Shown here: positions 24,067-64,000 of the stretch, piece after piece
Layout of the letters: each line of letters opens with the position of its first letter
Numbering within the stretch: the first letter of the stretch is position 1
Assembly (NCBI GenBank): GCA_029531795.1
Contig: JAPEIS010000016.1
Coordinates: 744,001 to 808,000 of the forward strand
Reading direction: 5' to 3'
Length of the DNA: 64,000 nt
Source: Sclerotinia nivalis
Taxonomy: Eukaryota; Ascomycota; Leotiomycetes; Helotiales; Sclerotiniaceae
Program-made: the position numbers and the translations under genes
The notes under the pieces: generated by a model
Told to the model about the DNA's origin: nothing
Database searches by the model: none
Seen by the model: the letters and a program-made list of their open reading frames with translations, nothing else

Positions 24067-24266
24067 AGCTGTATCACGGAGGCAGCAGACAGGATAACAG
24101 AAATCACTTTTATTGATAAGACGTAGCTCGAAGAGCTACGTTTCTATAGAAGGAACGGTTCCTTAAACACATTTATGTGTAGCGCTAGCCCCGACCGGGG
24201 CTAGCCTACACTTATCCGAGGTCCGACTCCTACGGGTCGGAACCCGAGCGGTCTCCGTATACCATA

Positions 24267-24359
24267 GGAGGACAAGACTCAACACCTGTACGCGGTGTCC
24301 TCTACGAACCTCCAGCTCTTTTATTTAATTATTAGAGTCTGCAGAGCTAAGTTTGAGTC
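24267..24359 (+). ncRNA. HDV-like self-cleaving ribozyme (copy A)
   Basis: Fold read by hand. P1 is GGAGGAC 24267-24273 with GTCCTCT 24297-24303 (G1.U closing wobble). P2 is GACTCAA 24276-24282 with TTGAGTC 24353-24359. P3 is ACC 24284-24286 with GGT 24294-24296, closing loop TGTACGC. P1.1 is possible between GT 24288-24289 and AC 24304-24305. P4 is 24310-24319 with 24334-24346. J4/2 is CTAA 24347-24350 right after P4, matching the CNRA signature with the catalytic C. Cleavage in this class is just 5' of P1 base 1, which is exactly the first base after the target duplication. Confidence 0.75.
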
Positions 24360-25132
24360 ATTTGATGGAGTCGTGGTGATTGGAAGAGGAAGAGGCACCC
24401 GATCGCGATGTTTTTTGCCTCCGAGTTGGCTGATGGCAAAGGCCAGATCTCGGTTTTTTGACAGTCGCATTATCGGATTGTGCTTTCTACAACACTACTT
24501 TTATTACGAAACAGAGGACAACACCATCATCTACGACAATATACCACAAAATCATCTCCAAGATCCCTCTGGGGCATCGGGCGCGATTTATCAAATTCGG
24601 TTTTAAGGTTCAGGCCTTACCTCCTTCGATTCGAATCAAAACAACAACAATTCATATACTTGGAGGAGCTGCGTGGAACGACCCGAGCTAATGACGTATC
24701 TGCCATAGAATTCGGTGGAGGATATACTACATACAGGATTGGGGCACCTTGTAGAATCAATATCCCCATGGTTTGGAGGGTTCTATGAAGTCGATATTAG
24801 GCAAGGCATGACCGCTGGGAAGTTACGAACAGAACAAAGAGTTGATGTGAAAGAAGGTTGTTTGGATTTGATTGATAGAGGGATCGGATTTGGAAAATTA
24901 TGAGTGTAATGCTTTGATTGGTATTTTTATCTTTATATGCGATGCCGTATAGAGGTCGGGCTTTGCTCCCCAGTATTAGTTTTCACTTCCTCCATCAAAA
25001 ATATATACAAACCTATATGCTATTTAGATAGCACTACCCATAGCCATCTGTTAAGAGCTCGATTGAGCTCTTAACCGTCCTAGATAGTCTTTGACTCAGT
25101 GTGGACGTTAATTAAATCAATCAATCAATCAA
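24267..25132 (+). mobile_element. 866-bp non-autonomous retroposon (copy A), ribozyme-headed, LINE-tailed
   Basis: Bounded by a 13-bp target duplication, TCCGTATACCATA (24254-24266 and 25133-25145). Same length and about 99% identical by eye to the copy at 50201-51066. The 5' end is an HDV-like ribozyme. The 3' end shares ATTAGTTTTCACTTCC, the TAGATAGTCT..GACTCAGTGT GGACGTTAATT block and an AATC tail with the autonomous LINE. Short ORFs inside have no recognisable product. Likely moved in trans by the LINE. Confidence 0.85.
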
Positions 25133-25168
25133 TCCGTATACCATATACGGGGACCCCGTGACAAGCTG

Positions 25169-25782: not shown

Positions 25783-26019
25783 TATCACGGAGGCAGCAGA
25801 CAGGATAACAGAAATCACTTTTATTGGTAAGACGTAGCTCGAAGAGCTACGTTTCTATAGAAGGAACGTTTCCTTTAAATACATTTGTGTGTGCTAGGGC
25901 TCCGAGCCCTAGCGCTCTTACAGGGTACGATCACCGAGTGTGCCCCGCTCGGTGCTGGATCGGACAGGTGGAGCCTACTAAAAGGGCCGGTTCAGTGGCC
26001 CGGCCCTGACCCTGTGATA
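25783..26019 (-). repeat. Gypsy A 3' LTR (left)
   Basis: 237 bp, TATCACGGAGG to CCTGTGATA on plus. Contains perfect hairpin arms (GTAGCTCGAAGAGCTAC; CTAGGGCTCCGAGCCCTAG; GGGCCGG..CCGGCCC). Confidence 0.9.
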
Positions 26020-31339: not shown

Positions 31340-31576
31340 TATCACAGAGGCAGCAGACAGGATAACAGAAATCACTTTTATTGGTAAGATGTAGCTCGAA
31401 GAACTACGTTTCTACAGAAGGAACGTTTCCTTTAAATACATTTGTGTGTACTAGGGCTCCGAGCCCTAGCGCTCTTACAGGGTACGATCACCGAGCGTGC
31501 CCCGCTCGGTGCTGGATCGGACAGGTGGAGCCTACTAAAAGGGCCGGTCCAGTGGCCCGGCCCTGACCCCGTGACA
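31340..31576 (-). repeat. Gypsy A 5' LTR (right)
   Basis: 237 bp, TATCACAGAGG to CCCCGTGACA on plus. Followed directly by TSD ATTCT. Confidence 0.9.
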
Positions 31577-33049: not shown

Positions 33050-33455
33050 TACAAGCTCTGGTTCAAACTCTGCAAGCTAGCACTCCAGAAATGCCCTATC
33101 AATCGACAATACAACGCTTTCCTTCTCAGGCTCTGCTCCTATACAGATTTGTAAAGACAATCTACTTTGAAATGCTCCTTGAAGCAGTTCTCAGACTCTA
33201 CATTCCACCACAGATTTGTAAAGATAATTCCGCTTCGAATTCCATCGTTGTTTCGTTGATTATCGGATAATTTTTATCTCCGATCGATTGATAAATCCTC
33301 TATTCCAGACCAAATTCATGATACCTTCACACCCAATACCATTCCTTTTTAAAGTACGACCTTTGTTCAGCTCCAATCTGATTCAATCTTGGATCTGTAA
33401 ATAAATTACAGATTCGTAGGATACACCATGTACAGATATTGAATCATCGCATCCC
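33050..33455 (-). mobile_element. Ribozyme-headed repeat (copy D)
   Basis: The reverse complement aligns by eye over about 400 bp with 57344-57740 (GGGATGCGATGATTCAA start, GAATAGAGGATTTATCAATCG, AGAAGGAAAGCGTTGT). Differences are mostly transitions. The 3' end is unclear and no target duplication was found. It lies within or next to a Gypsy integrase fragment. Confidence 0.6.
33380..33455 (-). ncRNA. HDV-like ribozyme (copy D)
   Basis: On minus: P1 GGGATGC (33455-33449) with GTATCCT (33424-33418; one G.U plus the G1.U wobble), P2 GATTCAA with TTGAATC (33386-33380), P3 ATC with GGT, loop TGTACAT, P4 ATCTGTAA/TTACAGAT (8 perfect pairs), then CCAA as J4/2. P4 sequence differs completely from copies A/B yet still pairs. 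Confidence 0.65.
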
Positions 33456-49690: not shown

Positions 49691-50200
49691 TTGATATGCT
49701 GTATGATTGAAGAAACGTATAGCACTGCCCAAAAAGGCTGAACATCCTTGATAGGGACAATTAAAGCCTTCATTAGTAGCACGAGATCAAAGATGCTGAG
49801 TTTTGATAAGACTATTAACACGGGGGTATTTATATCCTCGTTTTCTCGGTCCTGCTTCTTTATCATCCCATTAGTAGAAGACACACAATTAAATGGGAAT
49901 CTTAAAAAACTTCTCAGATCTTGTCATTAAATCAGAAATTGGAGATGTAGCTTTAAGATTAGAATCTGTGTTTTTTGATAAAGTCTGGAAATCGGTAATA
50001 TGTTTTCGAGGCCGTCCTTGGATGTCGGCACTCGATACTTGTACGGAGACTCGTGGCATTTAAAAGAGTCAGACTAAGTTTTGAACAAGCTCGAACCGTT
50101 TTTGAATAATCTGATCTTCAGTAAAGCCTATGAATGGCTCAAAGAGTAATCGGGCGATAGTAGTACGTTCCTCGAGCTTATATTCAATCGTTGGAGGGGT

Positions 50201-51066
50201 TTGATTGATTGATTGATTTAATTAACGTCCACACTGAGTCAAAGACTATCTAGGACGGTTAAGAGCTCAATCGAGCTCTTAACAGATGGCTATGGGTAGT
50301 ACTATCTAAATAGCATACAGGTTTGTATATATTTTTGATGGGGGAAGTGAAAACTAATACTGGGGAGCAAAGCCCGACCTCTATACGGCATCGCATATAA
50401 AGATAAAAATACCAATCAAAGCATTACACTCATAATTTTCCAAATCCGATCCCTCTATCAATCAAATCCAAACAACCTTCCTTCACATCAACTCTTTGTC
50501 CTGTTCGTAACTTCCCAGCAGTCATGCCTTGCCTAATATCGACTTCATAGAACCCTCCAAACCATAGGGATATTGATCCTACAAGGTGCCCCAATCCTGT
50601 ATGTAGTATATCCTCCACCGAATTCTATGGCAGATACGTCATTAGCTCGGGTCGTTCCACGCAGCTCCTCCAAGTATATGAATTGTTGTTGTTTTGATTC
50701 GAATCGAAGGAGGTAAGGCCTGAACCTTAAAACCGAATTTGATAAATCGCGCCCGATGCCCCAGAGGGATCTTGGAGATGATTTTGTGGTATATTGTCGT
50801 AGATGATGGTGTTGTCCTCTGTTTCGTAATAAAAGTAGTGTTGTAGAAAGCACAATCCGATAATGCGACTGTCAAAAAACCGAGATCTGGCCTTTGCCAT
50901 CAGCCAACTCGGAGGCAAAAAACATCGCGATCGGGTGCCTCTTCCTCTTCTAATCACCACGACTCCATCAAATGACTCAAACTTAGCTCTGCAGACTCTA
51001 ATAATTAAATAAAAGAGCTGGAGGTTCGTAGAGGACACCGCGTACAGGTGTTGAGTCTTGTCCTCC
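50201..51066 (-). mobile_element. 866-bp non-autonomous retroposon (copy B)
   Basis: 12-bp target duplication CGTTGGAGGGGT at 50189-50200 and 51067-51078. Same 5' end, length and AATC tail as copy A. Only a handful of single-base differences were noticed (for example GATTGG versus GATTAG, GAACAG versus GGACAG). Inserted in the DUF3435/FluG-type pseudogene. Confidence 0.88.
50974..51066 (-). ncRNA. HDV-like self-cleaving ribozyme (copy B)
   Basis: Sequence identical to copy A by eye: P1 51066-51060 with 51036-51030, P2' at 50980-50974, CTAA J4/2. The predicted cleavage site is again exactly the boundary with the target duplication. Confidence 0.75.
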
Positions 51067-51532
51067 CGTTGGAGGGGTAAGAATATCGGCAAACTGTATC
51101 CTTTGTAATTGTCGATCAATCTCGATAGTATGGATATTTTTATAAAACTTTTGGATAGTTTTGTTCAACAATTGTTTGTTCTTCTGGCTTTTCAAACTGT
51201 TGATCTCAATCTGAATTTTTTGATGTTTTTCGAAATATCTCGTTTTCGCAGCTGCTTTGATAGTGGGGTAGCCATGGCCCTTGATAACCCGGACAGACTC
51301 ACCGAATTCCAGATCGGATTGAGAATTATAGCCCGAATCTTGATCAAGATTAGAATCAGACACAGAACCGGACTCATCAGCAGTAGCAGGAGACAATCTT
51401 CGGCACTGATTCATTTTCATTTTTCTTATACCTGCAGTTCATATGTTCGTGGTTGTTCTTTCGCAAAACCTAAAAAGAATCTCAATTGTTTTAAGAAATT
51501 GAAAGTGTTCTATTAACAATATCCGGATCTCC

Positions 51533-57343: not shown

Positions 57344-57419
57344 GGGATGCGATGATTCAACACCTGTACGTGGTGCATCCTACGAACCTATAATTTATTT
57401 ACAGAGCCAAGATTGAATC
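57344..57419 (+). ncRNA. HDV-like ribozyme (copy C)
   Basis: P1 GGGATGC 57344-57350 with GCATCCT 57375-57381 (G1.U again), P2 GATTCAA 57354-57360 with TTGAATC 57413-57419, P3 ACC 57362-57364 with GGT 57372-57374, loop TGTACGT, P1.1 GT/AC, a weaker P4, and CCAA (57407-57410) as J4/2. Both P1 and P2 differ from copies A/B at paired positions on both strands. Confidence 0.7.
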
Positions 57420-57740
57420 AGACTGGAGCTGGGCAAAGGTCGTGCTTTAAAAAGGAGCGGTACTGGATGTGAAGGTATCGTGAATTGGGTCCGGAATAGA
57501 GGATTTATCAATCGAACGGAGATAAAAACTACCCGACAATCAACGAAACAATGACGGAATTCGAAACGGAATCACCTTTACGAATCTGCAGTGGGATGCA
57601 GAGTCTGAGAAATGCTTTAAGGAGTATTTCAAAGCGGACTGCTTTTACGAATCTGTGTGGGAGCAGAGCCTAAGAAGGAAAGCGTTGTGCTAGCGATTGA
57701 TAGGGCACCTTTGGGGTGCTGATGTGTAGAGTTTTCACGA
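57344..57740 (+). mobile_element. Ribozyme-headed repeat (copy C)
   Basis: Starts GGGATGCGATGATTCAA and aligns with copy D (33050-33455 minus) to about GGTGCTGATGTG at 57720. It is less transition-damaged than D. It shares only the first ~90 bp architecture with the 866-bp elements. The 3' end and target duplication were not located. Confidence 0.6.
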
Positions 57741-58553
57741 TCCAACAATGTGTACAATCTGCGGGTATACTGGATTGGAAGTTTATAGATGGTTAAGGGG
57801 AGTAATTGAGGATATACAAAGGTTGGGATGGAATCTTATATAAGCAGATTAAGGATAAAAGGACGCTTTTGATATTTTACTCTACCGAATATGCAAGAGT
57901 GGTATTATAATGACAAAGGAACTTTCGAACGAGAGGGACGTTTTTAGTAAGTTTCATTTTTGTGCAAAGCATTCGACAGATATCATGGCAGCGGATGAGC
58001 TTTGGTAGAGGCTACCTTATGATGCTTATATATGATGCGTTCTTAACCCTCAACATCGTCGATTATAAACTATATATTGGGGGAATGGATTTTGCAGATT
58101 GTGTTTTGATTAATGAGCTGGAAATGCTGTGTTTTATGCTGCCTGGTTAGGGGTTAAGATACAACAAAGCTTGCAAGATACAGTCGGCCTTGTTGTACAG
58201 AAGAGATCTGGCAAGGTAATGCGAAACGGTGCACAAGCTGCGGGGCGTAGCGTATAATGGCAGCGACAGTGACATTGTCTATACAGCTCAAAAGAACAAA
58301 TGTGCGTATCGGTCTATAATAAGGTATAAGGCAATTGGCAATAGAAATACCAAATAGATTTAAAGAGCAAACAGGATAATGGATATAGAAAGGTTGTTTT
58401 TGCTTGAAGACAACCTTCTCAAAGAATACTGAGACTGATATCTAGTATCTGGGAAAGCATAGTAAGAATTGGTTACTCTTACTTATATTTGTAGTCTCAC
58501 TGGATACACTGTAAAAGACTCATAGATTTGCAAATATAATATTATCTCTGCAG
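57740..58553. other. Unassigned region with a possible short gene
   Basis: 57890-58150 could encode MQEWYYNDKGTFEREGRF, then after a short GTAAGT..GACAG intron ISWQRMSFGRGYLMMLIYD and DYKLYIGGMDFADCVL up to a TAG at 58148-58150. The intron would be only ~33 nt, so this is weak. 58150-58553 shows nothing. Confidence 0.25.
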
Positions 58554-58559
58554 GAAATC

Positions 58560-59600
58560 ATCATCCAAGCTTACAAAGCAATCCCCACAACTTTCTTCAC
58601 TTTATTCAGCAATTTAATCAATCTCGGGTATCACCCTTCTTGTTGGAAACAAGCTACAGGAGCTATACTCAAGAAACCTTCAAAACCAGACTATTCTATT
58701 CCAAAAGCATACAGAGTTATTGTTCTTCTCAACTGTTTAGGCAAGATAAGCGAAAGAATCCTAGCTCAAAGACTTAGTTATCTAGCTGAAACGACGAAAT
58801 TGCTTCACCACTCTCAAATGGGTGGCAGACAAAAGAAATCAGCAATTGATACAGCTCTTCTACTTACTATAGAAATCGAAAGAAACTCAAGGATCAAAAA
58901 GAAAACCTCAGCTCTCTTTTTGGACGTTAAAGGAGCTTTCGATTATATATCCAAAAACCAGCTCTTAGATATCTACAAAAAGTTACATCTTCCAACTAAT
59001 CTCATAGCTTGGATCTCATCATTTCTGAAAGAAAGACTACTCAAACTCGTATTCGATGTTCAAACAAAGTCGTTCAAATCAATCAATACTGGAATCCCTC
59101 AAGGAAGCCCTATATCACCAATCCTCTTCTTAATCTATATCCGAGATCTCTTTCAATCAAACTCAATTAAATTTCTCTCATATATTGATAATATAGCTTT
59201 GATCATTCACTCTACCAACTGGAAAAAGAATATTCTCATTCTCGAAAAAGCAGCTACAAACATCTATACTCTTGGTGAGAAAAACGCTATCCAATTCGAT
59301 TTAGCAAAAACAGAGCTAATGCATTTCTTCACATCCAAATACACAAAAGACGCTCCAATCAAGCTACCCAATCTCGAGATTGTTCAACCTTCGACACTAG
59401 TCAGATGATTAAATGTATGATTCGATCCTGGCCTTAGCTTCAAGCAACACGTTACAATCAAAGCTACTCAAGCCAAAGTTTTGTTCTATCGAATAACTAG
59501 GCTAGCTAATACTGAGAAAGGACTTAGTCCCAAAGCCATGAGACAATTATATATGACTTGCATAACCAGTATAGCTGATTACGGTTCTATCATTTGATGG
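58560..59600 (+). pseudogene. LINE reverse transcriptase, nearly open
   Basis: MLHHSQMGGRQKKSAIDTAL, LFLDVKGAFDYISKNQLL, GIPQGSPISPILFLIYI and FLSYIDNIALI, where the YxDD box has become Y-I-D-N (GAT to AAT). A TGA after STLVR (59408) and a later TGA end the frame. Confidence 0.8.
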
Positions 59601-60584
59601 AAAGGTCAAATTCAATTCAAGAAAACTCTTCAATCAATTCAGAACCTAGCTCTTCGCAAGATTCTAGGGGTCTTCAAAACCTCACCTATCAAACCAATGG
59701 AAGTAGAAGCAGCCCTTTGCCCTCCAGAAGTCAGATTAAATGCTGGAATAAAGCAATATGCATTCAGATTACTAAAAATCTCCCGGTCACATCCAATCAA
59801 TCAAATCATATCGAAGCTGATTGCTGAAAAGAAGAATCAGGATGCGATTTCTACTCCACAAAGAAAGTATCCAAAGCCTACCCAACTCGAAAGAATCAAT
59901 AACTCAATCAGAGAAGAATACGATTCCTTCGCTTTAGAAAAAATTGATCATTTCCACTTTCCCCCTTGGAAAAGGGATACTCCATACAAAGTCAATATCA
60001 GCAAACTACCCAAGGAAGATGCTGTAATCATATACAATCTAGCTTTCAAATATAGAAGCAAAAACACCATTGTTATATATACAGATGCTTCGTCAATCTT
60101 GGAAGGGATAGGAGTAGGAATCGGGATCGTCGCTATTTCGGCCAGCGATCAAGTTCTTCACAAAGAAACACTCAATATTGGGGTAAATCAATTAGTGTAT
60201 AATGGTGAACTTCTTGAAGTCACAAGAGCAATCGAATACACAAGTTCTACAGCTCAACCAGACCAGAAATTCAAGATCTACTCCGATAATCAGGCCGGAC
60301 TTTACCGATTGAAAACACCTTCGGATGCTCCTGGTCAAACATACCAAATCAGAGCAATCAAAGCCACAGAAACTCTCATAAGGAAAGAAACCGAGATCTC
60401 CCTCAATTGGGTCCCTGGGTATACCTCGGTGAAAGGAAACGAACTAGCCGATGCCCTTGCAAAAGAAGCTATAAGACTAAGATCATCGTCGAACGAAACT
60501 AGCTTTGCCTCATTAGGAATGAATATCAAAAGAACCAAATCTGAAGATTGGATTATCTTTCTCAATACAAACAACCCCCGATAA
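59594..60584 (+). pseudogene. LINE RNase H, mostly open
   Basis: From 59697: HFPPWKRDTPYKVNIS, VIYTDASSILEGIGVGIG (first Asp), LLEVTRAIEYTS (Glu), IYSDNQAGLYRL (Asp), LNWVPGYTSVKGNELADALAKEA (His replaced in GHxxxxGNE). A TAA after NNPR stops it; the CCHC tail reads on past it (CRYGKRETPGHLL). Confidence 0.8.
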
Positions 60585-61324
60585 TCACCATCATCATATA
60601 CAAAAATTTACCCTTGGAAAACCAGCTCAAAAATCGGTATCCCAGGGAATATCAAAAGAAATATCATCAGTGCCCTTTTCCAATTAAAGATTGGTCACGG
60701 ATACTTCAAATCATATTTACAACGCTTTGGAATCTCGGCAAATGATAAATGTAGATATGGAAAAAGAGAAACTCCTGGTCATTTATTACTCAGCTACCCT
60801 TTATATAAAAAAGCAAGAAGAAAACTCAAAGAAAATAACCTATCGTCCAGACTCACTATAAAATACCTACTTCATACCAAAGCAGAAATAATCAAAATCT
60901 TCGAGTTCATCGATACAACAAGAATAGCTACTAGATCATAACATCTCAAACGAATACAAAAAGAAGAAGGAGAAGTAGAAGCAAAAGAAACAAAAGGAGC
61001 AAAAGGAACAAGAAAAGAGATGAATGATGAAATTAAAAGAAAAATGTAAATCCTTCTACAATTTTAAATAAATATTATTTCTTTTGTTATCTCTATAATA
61101 TGCTTCAGCATCTGTAGGACAGGATTATTCCTCAGGATTAGTTTTCACTTCCCCCATTCAACTCAAAAGATTGAGTTTACCTCAATCATTTAAATCATGT
61201 ACTTAGCCAGGCCTATAAGCCAGCTTACCTTCATTATGTTATCTGTTAGGGGTTCGTAAGAGCCTCTAGCCGTCTTAGATAGTCTTAGACTCAGTGTAGA
61301 CGTTAATTTAATCAATCAATCAAT

Positions 61325-62368
61325 TGTGTATTGAAGGGGCTATTAGTGGTTAGGATGATATTGTTGCTTCTAGTTGTAGTAATGGCCGAGATAACTGGTC
61401 CATTGATGCCAGCCTTTTTGAAGGCTTCGTTGATCTTGTTTCTTGTATGTAATGGTATAAAAGAATTGGGTTGATGAAGAAGTGGATTAATAAGGATTAA
61501 TCGTTTGCTAGGAACATCATTCTTTTGTTCTACAGGCTTTTGTTTTGTAGAGTTCCCTTTGGAAACTACTTTCCATTCCCCTACTGATTTGGTAACAGTA
61601 GCATAGCTTGCTTTGCCAATTGGTGAAGCGTTTGTTGAAGGAGTAATTGATTGATTGGGAAGGTTGGAAAGATGATTGGCTTGATTTTCAATCCTTTTGG
61701 TAGCCTTTTCGAGATGGGAGATTTGTGATGTGATGATATTCGAAGCTTTTGTCAATTTTCCTTTTTCGAGATATTCACGGAATATTTCGATTAGATCTAG
61801 GATCTTCGATTGTTCTTCGATTTCCTTTTCCAAAGAAGCAGCTAAAATAAGGAAGTCTCTAGCTTTTTGAATAGCTTCTTTTGGCCTTGTAGGATTAGAT
61901 CCTGATTGACTAAATTGCCGTCTTCGTTTGTTATTGATTTGGAGTGATGGGAGATTAGTAGATGATTTGAAAGGATTATCAGAGCTAAGAATATTGTGTT
62001 GAGCTTGGGAGTTGAAGGATTGGAAAGGGGTTGGGCTAGAAAGGATAAATGGGGGACTGTTGAGGCTCTCCTCATAAAGGAGTGGTGCAACCTCCTCTTG
62101 AGTTGGAGTACCTAAGATGACTCTTGGAAAGCTGGATGGGATAGTATCGACCATAATGGTCTCTTCGTCCATAATGGGAGGATGGAGAATCTTCGATTTT
62201 GACGCGATTTTTCGTGTGTATTTCGTGTTTTGTGCAGCAACGACAGTATCACAACAATTACTGGTTCAATTTCTTTGGGGACAATTGTATTCAATTTGGA
62301 TTGGTTTGTTTAGTCAATATAAGGTATAAAAAGGGCGTATTTCGAAGAATTATTCTTCTTCAAAATTT
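61325..62368 (-). pseudogene. LINE ORF1, 3' end removed by the facing LINE tail
   Basis: ATG 62172 on minus; 282 codons with FPRVILGTPTQEEVAPLL, LQINNKRRRQFSQSGS, KARDFLILAASLEKEIEEQ, SYATVTKSVGEWKVVSKGN, PVISAITTTRSNNIILTTNS. The last codons (QLID) are the neighbouring AATC tail. ORF1 lacks its zinc-knuckle end. The leader up to ~62368 matches the other ORF1 copy (CAGTATCACAACAA). Confidence 0.8.
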
Positions 62369-62371
62369 GTT

Positions 62372-64000
62372 GTGGGAACGAAAGGAAGAAGAGCTTACAG
62401 ATTATACCTTTCAGGACGAATAAAAGAGCATTTCAACAAAAAGATAGCTATTCATATATTCAAGAAGCTTCGATATATATATTATAATCTTTCAGGAATT
62501 CTTTCTCCTTCGACAAATAGAAATAGATACTTTCTTTTCATTACAAATGATACTACAAGAGTTGATTGGATATATTATATGAAGGATAAAAAGGCTACAA
62601 CAATGGTTCCTGTTCTAATGAATCTTATCAAGGAAATTGAAAACGAAATAAGAGAAAAAGTTGTAATTGTTCGTATAGATAATAGAAAAGACGAATTTGG
62701 TATAGTATTTCAAGACGAATTCAAAAACTTGGTATACAATTCGAACCTTCTCCTCCAGGAAAGCATTCTATAAACGGAATCGCCGAGAAACAAATTCAAG
62801 ATATCAATACTAGATCTAAAAGTTTACTCGATCAAATAGATATACCAAACGATCAATAGAAGCTAACGACTCGTTATACTATTTGGTTACGCAACAGAGC
62901 TCCAACGAAAGCTCTACCATTCGGGAAATCAGGACCTTTATCCATAGCGATAACTCCTTTCGAAGCATACTATAGCAGATTACCGGATTTCTCGAATCTA
63001 CAAATATTTGACTATAAAGCATTCGCTCTCAACCCTCAACATCCAGGAAAACTAACAAAGAAGTTTGAATCACAAATATTAAAAGGGGACTTTATATTCG
63101 TTAGAATAGATGAATATCATATTTATCTTCTACTTAGTCTCCTTTCCAAGAAGATAATAAAAACCGCAGATGCTGACTTCAATGAATATAGTTTTCCATT
63201 TAAAGAAACTTCAATTGAATCAAGATCTGGTACAGACAGGGCAATTTCAAAGTTTGGTATAGACAAAGCAACCCTAAGGTCTGGTACAGACAGGGCAATT
63301 TCAAAGTCTGGTATAGATAAAGCAACCCTAAGGTCTGGTACAGACAAGGCAATTTCAAAGTCTGGTATAGACAAAGCAACCCTAAGGTTTGGTATAGACA
63401 AAACAACTTCAAAATCTGGTACAGATAAGAGAGCTCCAAAAGCTAAAAAGAGAGATCCACCATCTACAGCGAAAGAACCTTAACAAAAGAAAAGAGGAAG
63501 ACCTTCGATACAAAAGAAGATCTCACAAGCAAATGCCAATATAATTAGAAGTTTATTGAATACTACCTGCAAATACTGTTTGAGAAAGATTTTTAGTGAT
63601 CAAATTGTACAACAAGTAAAAGCCTTGAAAGTTGTTGCTGTTGATACTGAAAATTCTGTTCAAATCGGTGGTTCAGTAATGCTTTTTGAGACAATAAAAC
63701 TTGAAGAGGTTATGCGAAAAGACAATAAGCAATGGTTAAAAGCCATTAGATCTGAATTGATTAGTCTTCGGGAGAACGGTATATTCGAGATTATACAAAG
63801 GGAAGTGCTAGGAGGCAAGAAACTGATAACTTCCAAATGGGTTCTGCAGAACAAAATGAATCAATTCAATAAGATAGCTAAATGAAAGGCTAGACTCATT
63901 GTAAAAGGATATCTACAATAGAAAGGTATCGATTTCAAAAAAACATTTGTAAAAATCGGGAGATATTCTACATTGAGAACTCTACTCGCTAAAGCTGTGT
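62372..64000 (+). pseudogene. Copia-type pol fragment (integrase to RT), runs off the window
   Basis: Integrase core: SGILSPSTNRNRYFLFITND (first D region), VVIVRIDNRKDEFG (second D), and, after a one-base shift, PGKHSINGVAEKQIQDI (E). Then FGKSGPLSIAITPFEAYY and FALNPQHPGKLTKKFESQ, the 27-bp repeat array, KKRGRPSIQKK, and the start of Copia RT: EEVMRKDNKQWLKAIRSEL, SLRENGIFEII, KLITSKWVLQNKMN, KARLIVKGYLQ. Several TAA/TAG/TGA. No LTR, gag or protease in the window. Confidence 0.8.
63226..63441 (+). repeat. Eight 27-bp in-frame repeats inside Copia pol
   Basis: Units alternate between TCTGGTACAGACAGGGCAAT+TTCAAAG and TTTGGTATAGACAAAGCAAC+CCTAAGG, encoding 9-residue blocks SGTDRAISK / SGIDKATLR. 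Located between integrase and RT, in the normally variable linker. Confidence 0.9.

Follow-up and report, generated by a model that had tools for sequence, protein, structure and literature searches.

HDV-like self-cleaving ribozymes are known from the 5' ends of several non-LTR retrotransposons, and the reports cited here provide the closest systems for comparison. They are established at the 5' ends of R2 elements, in a report that refers as well to a previously described HDV-like ribozyme from a cold-tolerant fungus (PMC3774820). The R2/R1 hybrid SIDEs of Drosophila are non-autonomous and carry a 5' HDV-like ribozyme whose activity has been shown (PMC3414825). In trypanosomatids, L1Tc, NARTc and SIDER have in common a short 5' hallmark that is an HDV-like ribozyme, present on autonomous and non-autonomous elements (PMC4035085). 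The preliminary description of the DNA studied here had likewise stated that such ribozymes are known to define the 5' ends of some R2-type and other non-LTR elements. In fungi, 230 HDV variants have been described in 26 species, with widely variable gene associations and with cleavage demonstrated for two (PMC5640933); "transpos" and "retrotransposon" have 0 occurrences in the main text of that report. Chimeras of WEIRD and MGL (MINE) in Magnaporthe have been explained by template jumps of a LINE reverse transcriptase (PMC2104539).

The window, that is the whole stretch of 64,000 nucleotides of DNA from the snow mould Sclerotinia nivalis analysed here, contains two insertions of a SINE-like element that we call family A (Table 1). 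Reading of the sequence and a script confirmed that these two 866-bp insertions have independent target duplications and begin at the same base, and that in both of them this base is position 1 of a complete HDV-type fold. We consider it highly probable, from structure and comparison of copies, that positions 24267-24359 are an HDV-like self-cleaving ribozyme forming the 5' end of a non-autonomous retroposon. The preliminary description was thus right on structure and place, and very probably on function.

Table 1. Positions of the predicted ribozymes, the elements that carry them and the associated LINE sequences, numbered from the first base of the window.
Feature	Position	Strand	Remarks
HDV-like ribozyme, family A copy 1	24267..24359	+	Sequence, script, covariance model
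P1 5' strand	24267-24273	+	GGAGGAC; 7 bp with P1 3' strand, first pair G.U
P1 3' strand	24297..24303	+	GTCCTCT; script
P2 5' strand	24276..24282	+	GACTCAA; pairs with TTGAGTC 24353-24359, 7 bp
P3 (ACC/GGT) closing L3	24284..24296	+	3 bp; L3 TGTACGC = 24287-24293
P4 hairpin	24310..24346	+	CTCCAGCTCT/AGAG-T-CTG-CA-GAG; 10 bp, two bulges
Predicted catalytic C	24347	+	Start of CTAAG (J4/2); placed by analogy to known HDV ribozymes
SINE-like element, family A copy 1	24267..25132	+	866 nt
Target site duplication of copy 1, 5' side	24254..24266	+	13 nt, TCCGTATACCATA
Target site duplication of copy 1, 3' side	25133..25145	+	13 nt
3' region common to family A copy 1 and LINE tail	25046..25129	+	Terminates in (AATC)n
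SINE-like element, family A copy 2	50201..51066	-	866 nt
Target site duplications of copy 2	50189-50200 and 51067-51078		12 nt
HDV-like ribozyme, family A copy 2	50974..51066	-	79.3 bits
HDV-like ribozyme, family C	33380..33455	-	Descriptor match; 79.1 bits; same as locus L111, a training row of model R1
Family C segment from ribozyme base 1	33065..33455	-	391 nt, then diverges into gypsy-like fragment
HDV-like ribozyme, family C, second window copy	57344..57419	+	81.2 bits; outside the R1 training rows
Family C element	57344..58550	+	1207 nt, 3' end joined to LINE fragment
5'-truncated LINE	58551..61324	+	RT and RNase H domains; tail common to family A
5' part of another LINE copy (ORF1)	61324..62374	-	No HDV-like fold found at 5' end 62374

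Family A is SINE-like in having target duplications, a variable simple-repeat tail, a 3' end shared with a LINE and no coding capacity; the interior of copy 1 contains no listed ORF of at least 120 aa. SINEs in the strict sense carry an internal Pol III promoter derived from tRNA, 5S or 7SL RNA. No tRNA was found by ARAGORN in the 64-kb window, and Rfam was likewise without a match there. The first insertion is flanked by a 96-nt direct repeat (97%; 24072-24167 and 25783-25878) with the palindrome ACGTAGCTCGAAGAGCTACGT inside, and a sequence related to this repeat occurs near 31400 (-).

The previously proposed P1, P2, P3, L3, P1.1, P4 and CTAA were all reproduced by script, to which we add C24283, a single extra base separating P2 from P3 that the preliminary description did not mention. 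The joining segments are AA (J1/2) and ACGAAC (J1.1/4), and CUAAG lies between P4 and the P2 3' strand. The nested double pseudoknot formed by P1, P2, P3 and P1.1 with P4 is present; the possible P1.1, between GU of L3 and AC after P1, is only 2 bp long and nearly invariant, and is therefore weakly tested. The base at 24347 is presumably the catalytic C, by analogy with HDV ribozymes.

A loose structure descriptor produced 1.33 matches per shuffled 64-kb strand, a figure that fell to 0.2 once a P2 of 7 bp was required, and a strict descriptor (P2 = 7, J1/2 <= 4, L3 = 7, J2/3 <= 1, J4/2 <= 6) produced 0 matches in 60 shuffles. Applied to both strands of the actual window, the loose descriptor had three matches, namely the two SINE copies and a site at 33455 (-). 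It missed a further site at 57344 (+) that was detected by the covariance model described below. Minimum-energy folding, by which a pseudoknot cannot be modelled, was ordinary for the region (z = -1.11, with 27 of 200 shuffles folding equally well or better); folding energy was therefore dropped as support for the ribozyme because it is not significant. Rfam searches returned no match for either the window or the narrow region, even at E = 10. The covariance search of the window that the preliminary description had proposed is positive with our own model R1 and negative with the Rfam models. Descriptor matches in 30 RT loci (L076-L105) and in the flanks of L001-L038 were scattered and had no shared core, and we took them as chance. 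The same holds for matches to the core pattern in viral contigs (1) and prokaryote genomes (6), none of which (0/7) matched the model at E <= 10.

Copies of family A were searched in the whole genome (50.3 Mb, 31 contigs). The best 40 of 267 candidates from a DNA search all start at query base 1 (40/40). Together with five copies obtained with a 5' query they make up 45 compared copies, a sample biased towards top scores, which are 87-100% identical to copy 1. The preliminary description had staked its reading on the coincidence of 5' ends with P1 base 1, and this coincidence was found in 45/45 of the compared copies. An exact target duplication abuts base 1 in 39 of them and one with a single mismatch in 3, two of which can equally be read as exact duplications with one additional base; in the remaining 3 copies none was found. 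The exact duplications are 11-16 nt long and end at base 1. A 22-nt 5' pattern, allowing up to 3 mismatches, has 79 matches in the genome (reversed control, 0). When exact copies of the 3' motif were taken as the starting point, 66/68 were preceded within 8 kb by a 5' match on the same strand and 2/68 were not; 63 of these 66 pairs are spaced by 834-838 nt and the others by 1052, 1077 and 6901 nt. Truncation at the 5' end therefore appears to be rare, in an estimate that misses decayed copies beyond the mismatch limits.

Substitutions among the 45 copies, counted against the majority base, are overwhelmingly C>T or G>A (1401/1510). Such a bias is what RIP would give. Substitution rates in the first ~93 nt and the last ~66 nt of family A are several-fold lower than in the middle. 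This sparing of both edges from C>T and G>A decay is possibly an edge effect of RIP. That the first 92 nt are conserved was rejected as a proof for selection, since the 3' edge is spared as well, and the pattern is not used here as evidence for selection on the ribozyme.

A search of the genome for the core pattern combined with a loop different from UGUACG gave 7 matches (reversed-pattern control, 0): four belong to a family B, two to a family C, one of them being the window site at 33455, and one is A-like. The three families are an incomplete list, and the R1 covariance search covered the window, not the whole genome. The A-like locus (L109, C13:239 kb) is a family A copy with a flush target duplication, in which the middle has been exchanged for a 256-nt piece; this piece recurs in L111 (95%), where it immediately precedes the shared family C region. 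Family B elements are ~1.09 kb long. In blastn comparisons, the similarity between A and B (80-84% identity) is confined to 104-137 nt at their 5' ends and 130-133 nt at their 3' ends, apart from one family B copy that shares an additional 45-nt piece with A. These two common parts are the two that the mechanism proposed below needs. Flush duplications judged by eye in the four family B copies are clean in L106 and L110, differ at the last base in L108, and are not distinguishable in L107, which lies inside a tandem repeat. All four family B copies have an A replacing G near the end of L3. An L3 G is reported to be important in a wasp R2 ribozyme (PMC3774820), which may not be the position changed in B.

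The family C unit is ~1207 nt long. The ribozyme at 33455 has a P1, P2 and P4 different from those of family A, on the same core, and the segment that it heads in the window runs into a fragment assigned as gypsy-like by reading its translation. The 1207-nt family C element in the window is 92.3% identical to that of another locus (L113) over 1207 aligned positions. Scoring the best 40 of 161 candidates, 28/30 of the listed places that cover the start begin at query 40-48, where ribozyme base 1 is 46; the remaining two are the window copy and a near-copy at C16:879-881 kb, whose similarity continues upstream for another 358 nt. By eye, these starts adjoin differing flanks. Of 26 short family C loci, 24 retain the loop region and adjoin the flank with base 1, some of them with point changes; the exceptions are L137, with its first two bases changed, and L139, without the loop region.

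We used these families to examine the proposed structure. In six B and C sequences, 92.8% of the cells pair, as compared with 24.7-47.0% when the partners are slid. A covariance model (R1) built from these six sequences, using P1, P3 and P4, was run unfiltered on the window. It scored the two A copies at 79.3 bits each and the two C copies at 79.1 and 81.2 bits, with the best unrelated match at 15.5 bits. The E-value of family A copy 1 is 2.7e-13; since A and B are related in sequence, this score is not pure structure evidence. We then aligned 83 matches from 80 sources, including window/locus duplicates and the deleted L139, which reduce to 39 distinct rows. In these rows 94.6% of the cells pair, versus 25.5-47.0% with the partners slid. 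Paired cells amount to 98.5% in P1, 97.8% in P2, 96.5% in P3, 100% in P1.1 and 87.1% in P4. P4 of family C differs in sequence from that of A, and its register differs from that of A and B, which explains the lower P4 score. The possible P1.1 is paired in 38/38 rows with letters there, one of its two pairs being invariant.

Nine pairs are changed on both sides (4 in P1, 2 in P2 and 3 in P4). These two-sided changes mostly separate C from A and B and thus represent few independent events; the covariation stems from about three lineages, in 39 rows that are far from independent and in an alignment that was itself fitted to part of the structure. Further pair types are no more frequent than in shuffles (25 vs 25.2). 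A few single uncompensated changes in P1 and P2, of the C>T / G>A type, are present. The preliminary description had also named uncompensated changes in these helices as evidence that would refute its reading; the helix differences seen in B and C are compensated. What the analysis shows is the fold, kept through compensatory differences between families, the fixed 5' ends, the target duplications and the shared LINE tail.

At the positions of the core, CTAAG or CCAAG, that is the predicted catalytic C followed by a conserved A, is found in 35/39 distinct rows, with T replacing C in 4/39. The first P1 pair is G.U in 38/39 and A-U in 1, and the extra base between P2 and P3 is C or T in every aligned row. 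The fungal variants described previously similarly have one additional base, usually C, separating P2 from P3, whereas their cleavage-site pair is typically C-G instead of G.U, and they have a loop E motif in P4 of which none is apparent by eye in the S. nivalis P4 (PMC5640933).

The preliminary description had also attributed a LINE-type tail to family A, and this was confirmed: positions 25046-25129 are 84.7% identical, over 85 aligned positions, to the tail of the LINE at 58551-61324, and (AATC)n ends both. The preliminary description had called this tail Tad-type, and the partner LINE may belong to the Tad clade. An endonuclease domain is present in another LINE, at L113. We infer that the ORF1 copy at 61324-62374 is the 5' half of the tail-sharing LINE type. 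Copies of this ORF1 part have sharp starts, 37/47 rows beginning at query 38-53, which mostly corresponds to window position 62374. This end was ruled out as a ribozyme because it has no R1 match; the apparent helper thus seems to lack the ribozyme that heads its parasites. Because a LINE without ribozyme also has sharp 5' ends, a fixed 5' end by itself proves nothing. Among the few LINE ends examined, no donor LINE carrying the ribozyme was found. Eight LINE-type RT matches of equal score (C9, C16, C19-C22, C26) comprise seven open frames of 1265 aa and one of 816 aa; six of them lie on contigs C19-C22 and C26, and our guess is that they represent a subtelomeric LINE.

In three copies, a nearly full-length C unit is joined to LINE-like sequence at apparently three different points. 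The junction at window position 58551 falls in or just before the RT domain; by reading of the translations, that of L113 falls in the zinc-knuckle part of ORF1 and that of L120, tentatively, near the ORF1/ORF2 boundary. The 1.2-kb C units of the window (57344-58550) and of L113 (4436-5642, -) are apparently non-coding, with the predicted ribozyme at their 5' ends. Family C resembles WEIRD in its arrangement, that of a ~1.1-1.2 kb apparently non-coding 5' unit joined to LINE fragments at different points; no ribozyme is mentioned in the parts of the WEIRD report consulted (PMC2104539). A further difference from WEIRD/MINE (PMC2104539) is that visual inspection of two family C composites showed no surrounding target duplication; the L113 piece may end before the LINE 3' end. 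Their insertion history is therefore less clear.

These data suggest the following mechanism. Family A would be transcribed within a longer RNA initiated upstream, probably by read-through. The ribozyme would fold through P1, P2, P3, P1.1 and P4 and cut just 5' of G24267, to leave an RNA starting at base 1. A LINE reverse transcriptase of the same genome, presumably that of the tail-sharing type, would recognise the shared 3' region and the (AATC)n tail, prime on the nicked target and copy up to the ribozyme-made 5' end, and repair would then produce the target duplication of 11-16 nt that abuts base 1. The Drosophila R2/R1 SIDEs are alike in being headed by a ribozyme and in having a 3' end from a different LINE, whose machinery is presumably used, and their target duplications are of 14 bp. 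They differ in that they sit in rDNA with a ribozyme derived from R2, whereas the S. nivalis insertions are dispersed and without Rfam match (PMC3414825). In the trypanosomatids it is the autonomous LINE that bears the hallmark (PMC4035085), whereas the tail-sharing LINE of S. nivalis shows none at its 5' end.

The 5' region could instead be a conserved promoter or an RT-binding structure that resembles an HDV ribozyme, with the 5' end set by the start of transcription. The sharp 5' ends of the LINE devoid of the fold speak for this reading, as does the 77-nt hallmark of trypanosomatids, which is both promoter and ribozyme (PMC8190864, PMC4035085); the two functions are, as that hallmark indicates, not exclusive. 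A promoter, however, need not maintain P1 complementarity through changes, three sets of helices carry the same core residues and pseudoknot geometry, and ARAGORN detected no tRNA in the window. We therefore regard a promoter or binding structure as unlikely. A chance fold at the end of an element is scarcely credible: the loose descriptor does find about 1.3 matches per shuffled 64-kb strand, but the strict one found none in 60 shuffles, and the occurrence of the same core in families B and C contradicts it.

Very unlikely, if somewhat less so than chance, is a ribozyme that was once functional and is now dead, retained through descent from few masters. The heavy C>T / G>A decay of the 45 copies would fit such a history, as would the T found in place of the predicted catalytic C in the 4/39 rows mentioned above. 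Against it, the commonest sequences among the 83 aligned matches are one identical family A sequence (30/83) and one identical family C sequence (9/83), and 9/45 copies, counting copy 1, match copy 1 at 98.9% identity or more. With so many identical or near-identical copies, amplification looks recent. A ribozyme that cleaves at base 1 is thus the reading that we retain.

The preliminary description had suggested that a ribozyme on a short non-autonomous ascomycete retroposon with a Tad-type LINE tail would be new. Among the literature matches listed, from which subscription papers, preprints and supplements were absent, there was no report of an HDV-like ribozyme on a fungal retroposon; HDV-like ribozymes as such were already known in fungi (PMC5640933). 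What looks new is the existence in a fungus of ribozyme-headed SINE-like elements that share the tail of a LINE without visible ribozyme. A WEIRD/MINE-like family bearing a predicted ribozyme also looks new, and no description was found of three families built on one core. If true, the mechanism would give fungal HDV-like ribozymes a concrete job, that of setting the 5' end of a retroposon RNA. With the ribozyme on the non-autonomous element and not on its apparent partner LINE, S. nivalis would offer a natural set-up for asking how each obtains full-length 5' ends, and the ribozyme would be a simple marker for the exact 5' ends of fungal SINE-like repeats.

We also put forward, tentatively and with less than even confidence, a broader reading. 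A mobile 5' ribozyme module, absent from the tail-sharing LINE, would head several otherwise unrelated non-autonomous retroposons (A, B and C). The "housekeeping" non-coding RNAs of WEIRD type, which template switching joins to LINEs again and again, would then be retroposon RNAs trimmed by a ribozyme, and the 5' ends of such elements may be what many of the 230 HDV variants described in fungi mark. Two additional 5' matches, at C1:3865801 (-) and C2:1218876 (+), begin with GGATGC[A/G]AAGACTCAACACCTG. They mix a C-like P1 with an A/B-like P2 and possibly represent a further ribozyme family.
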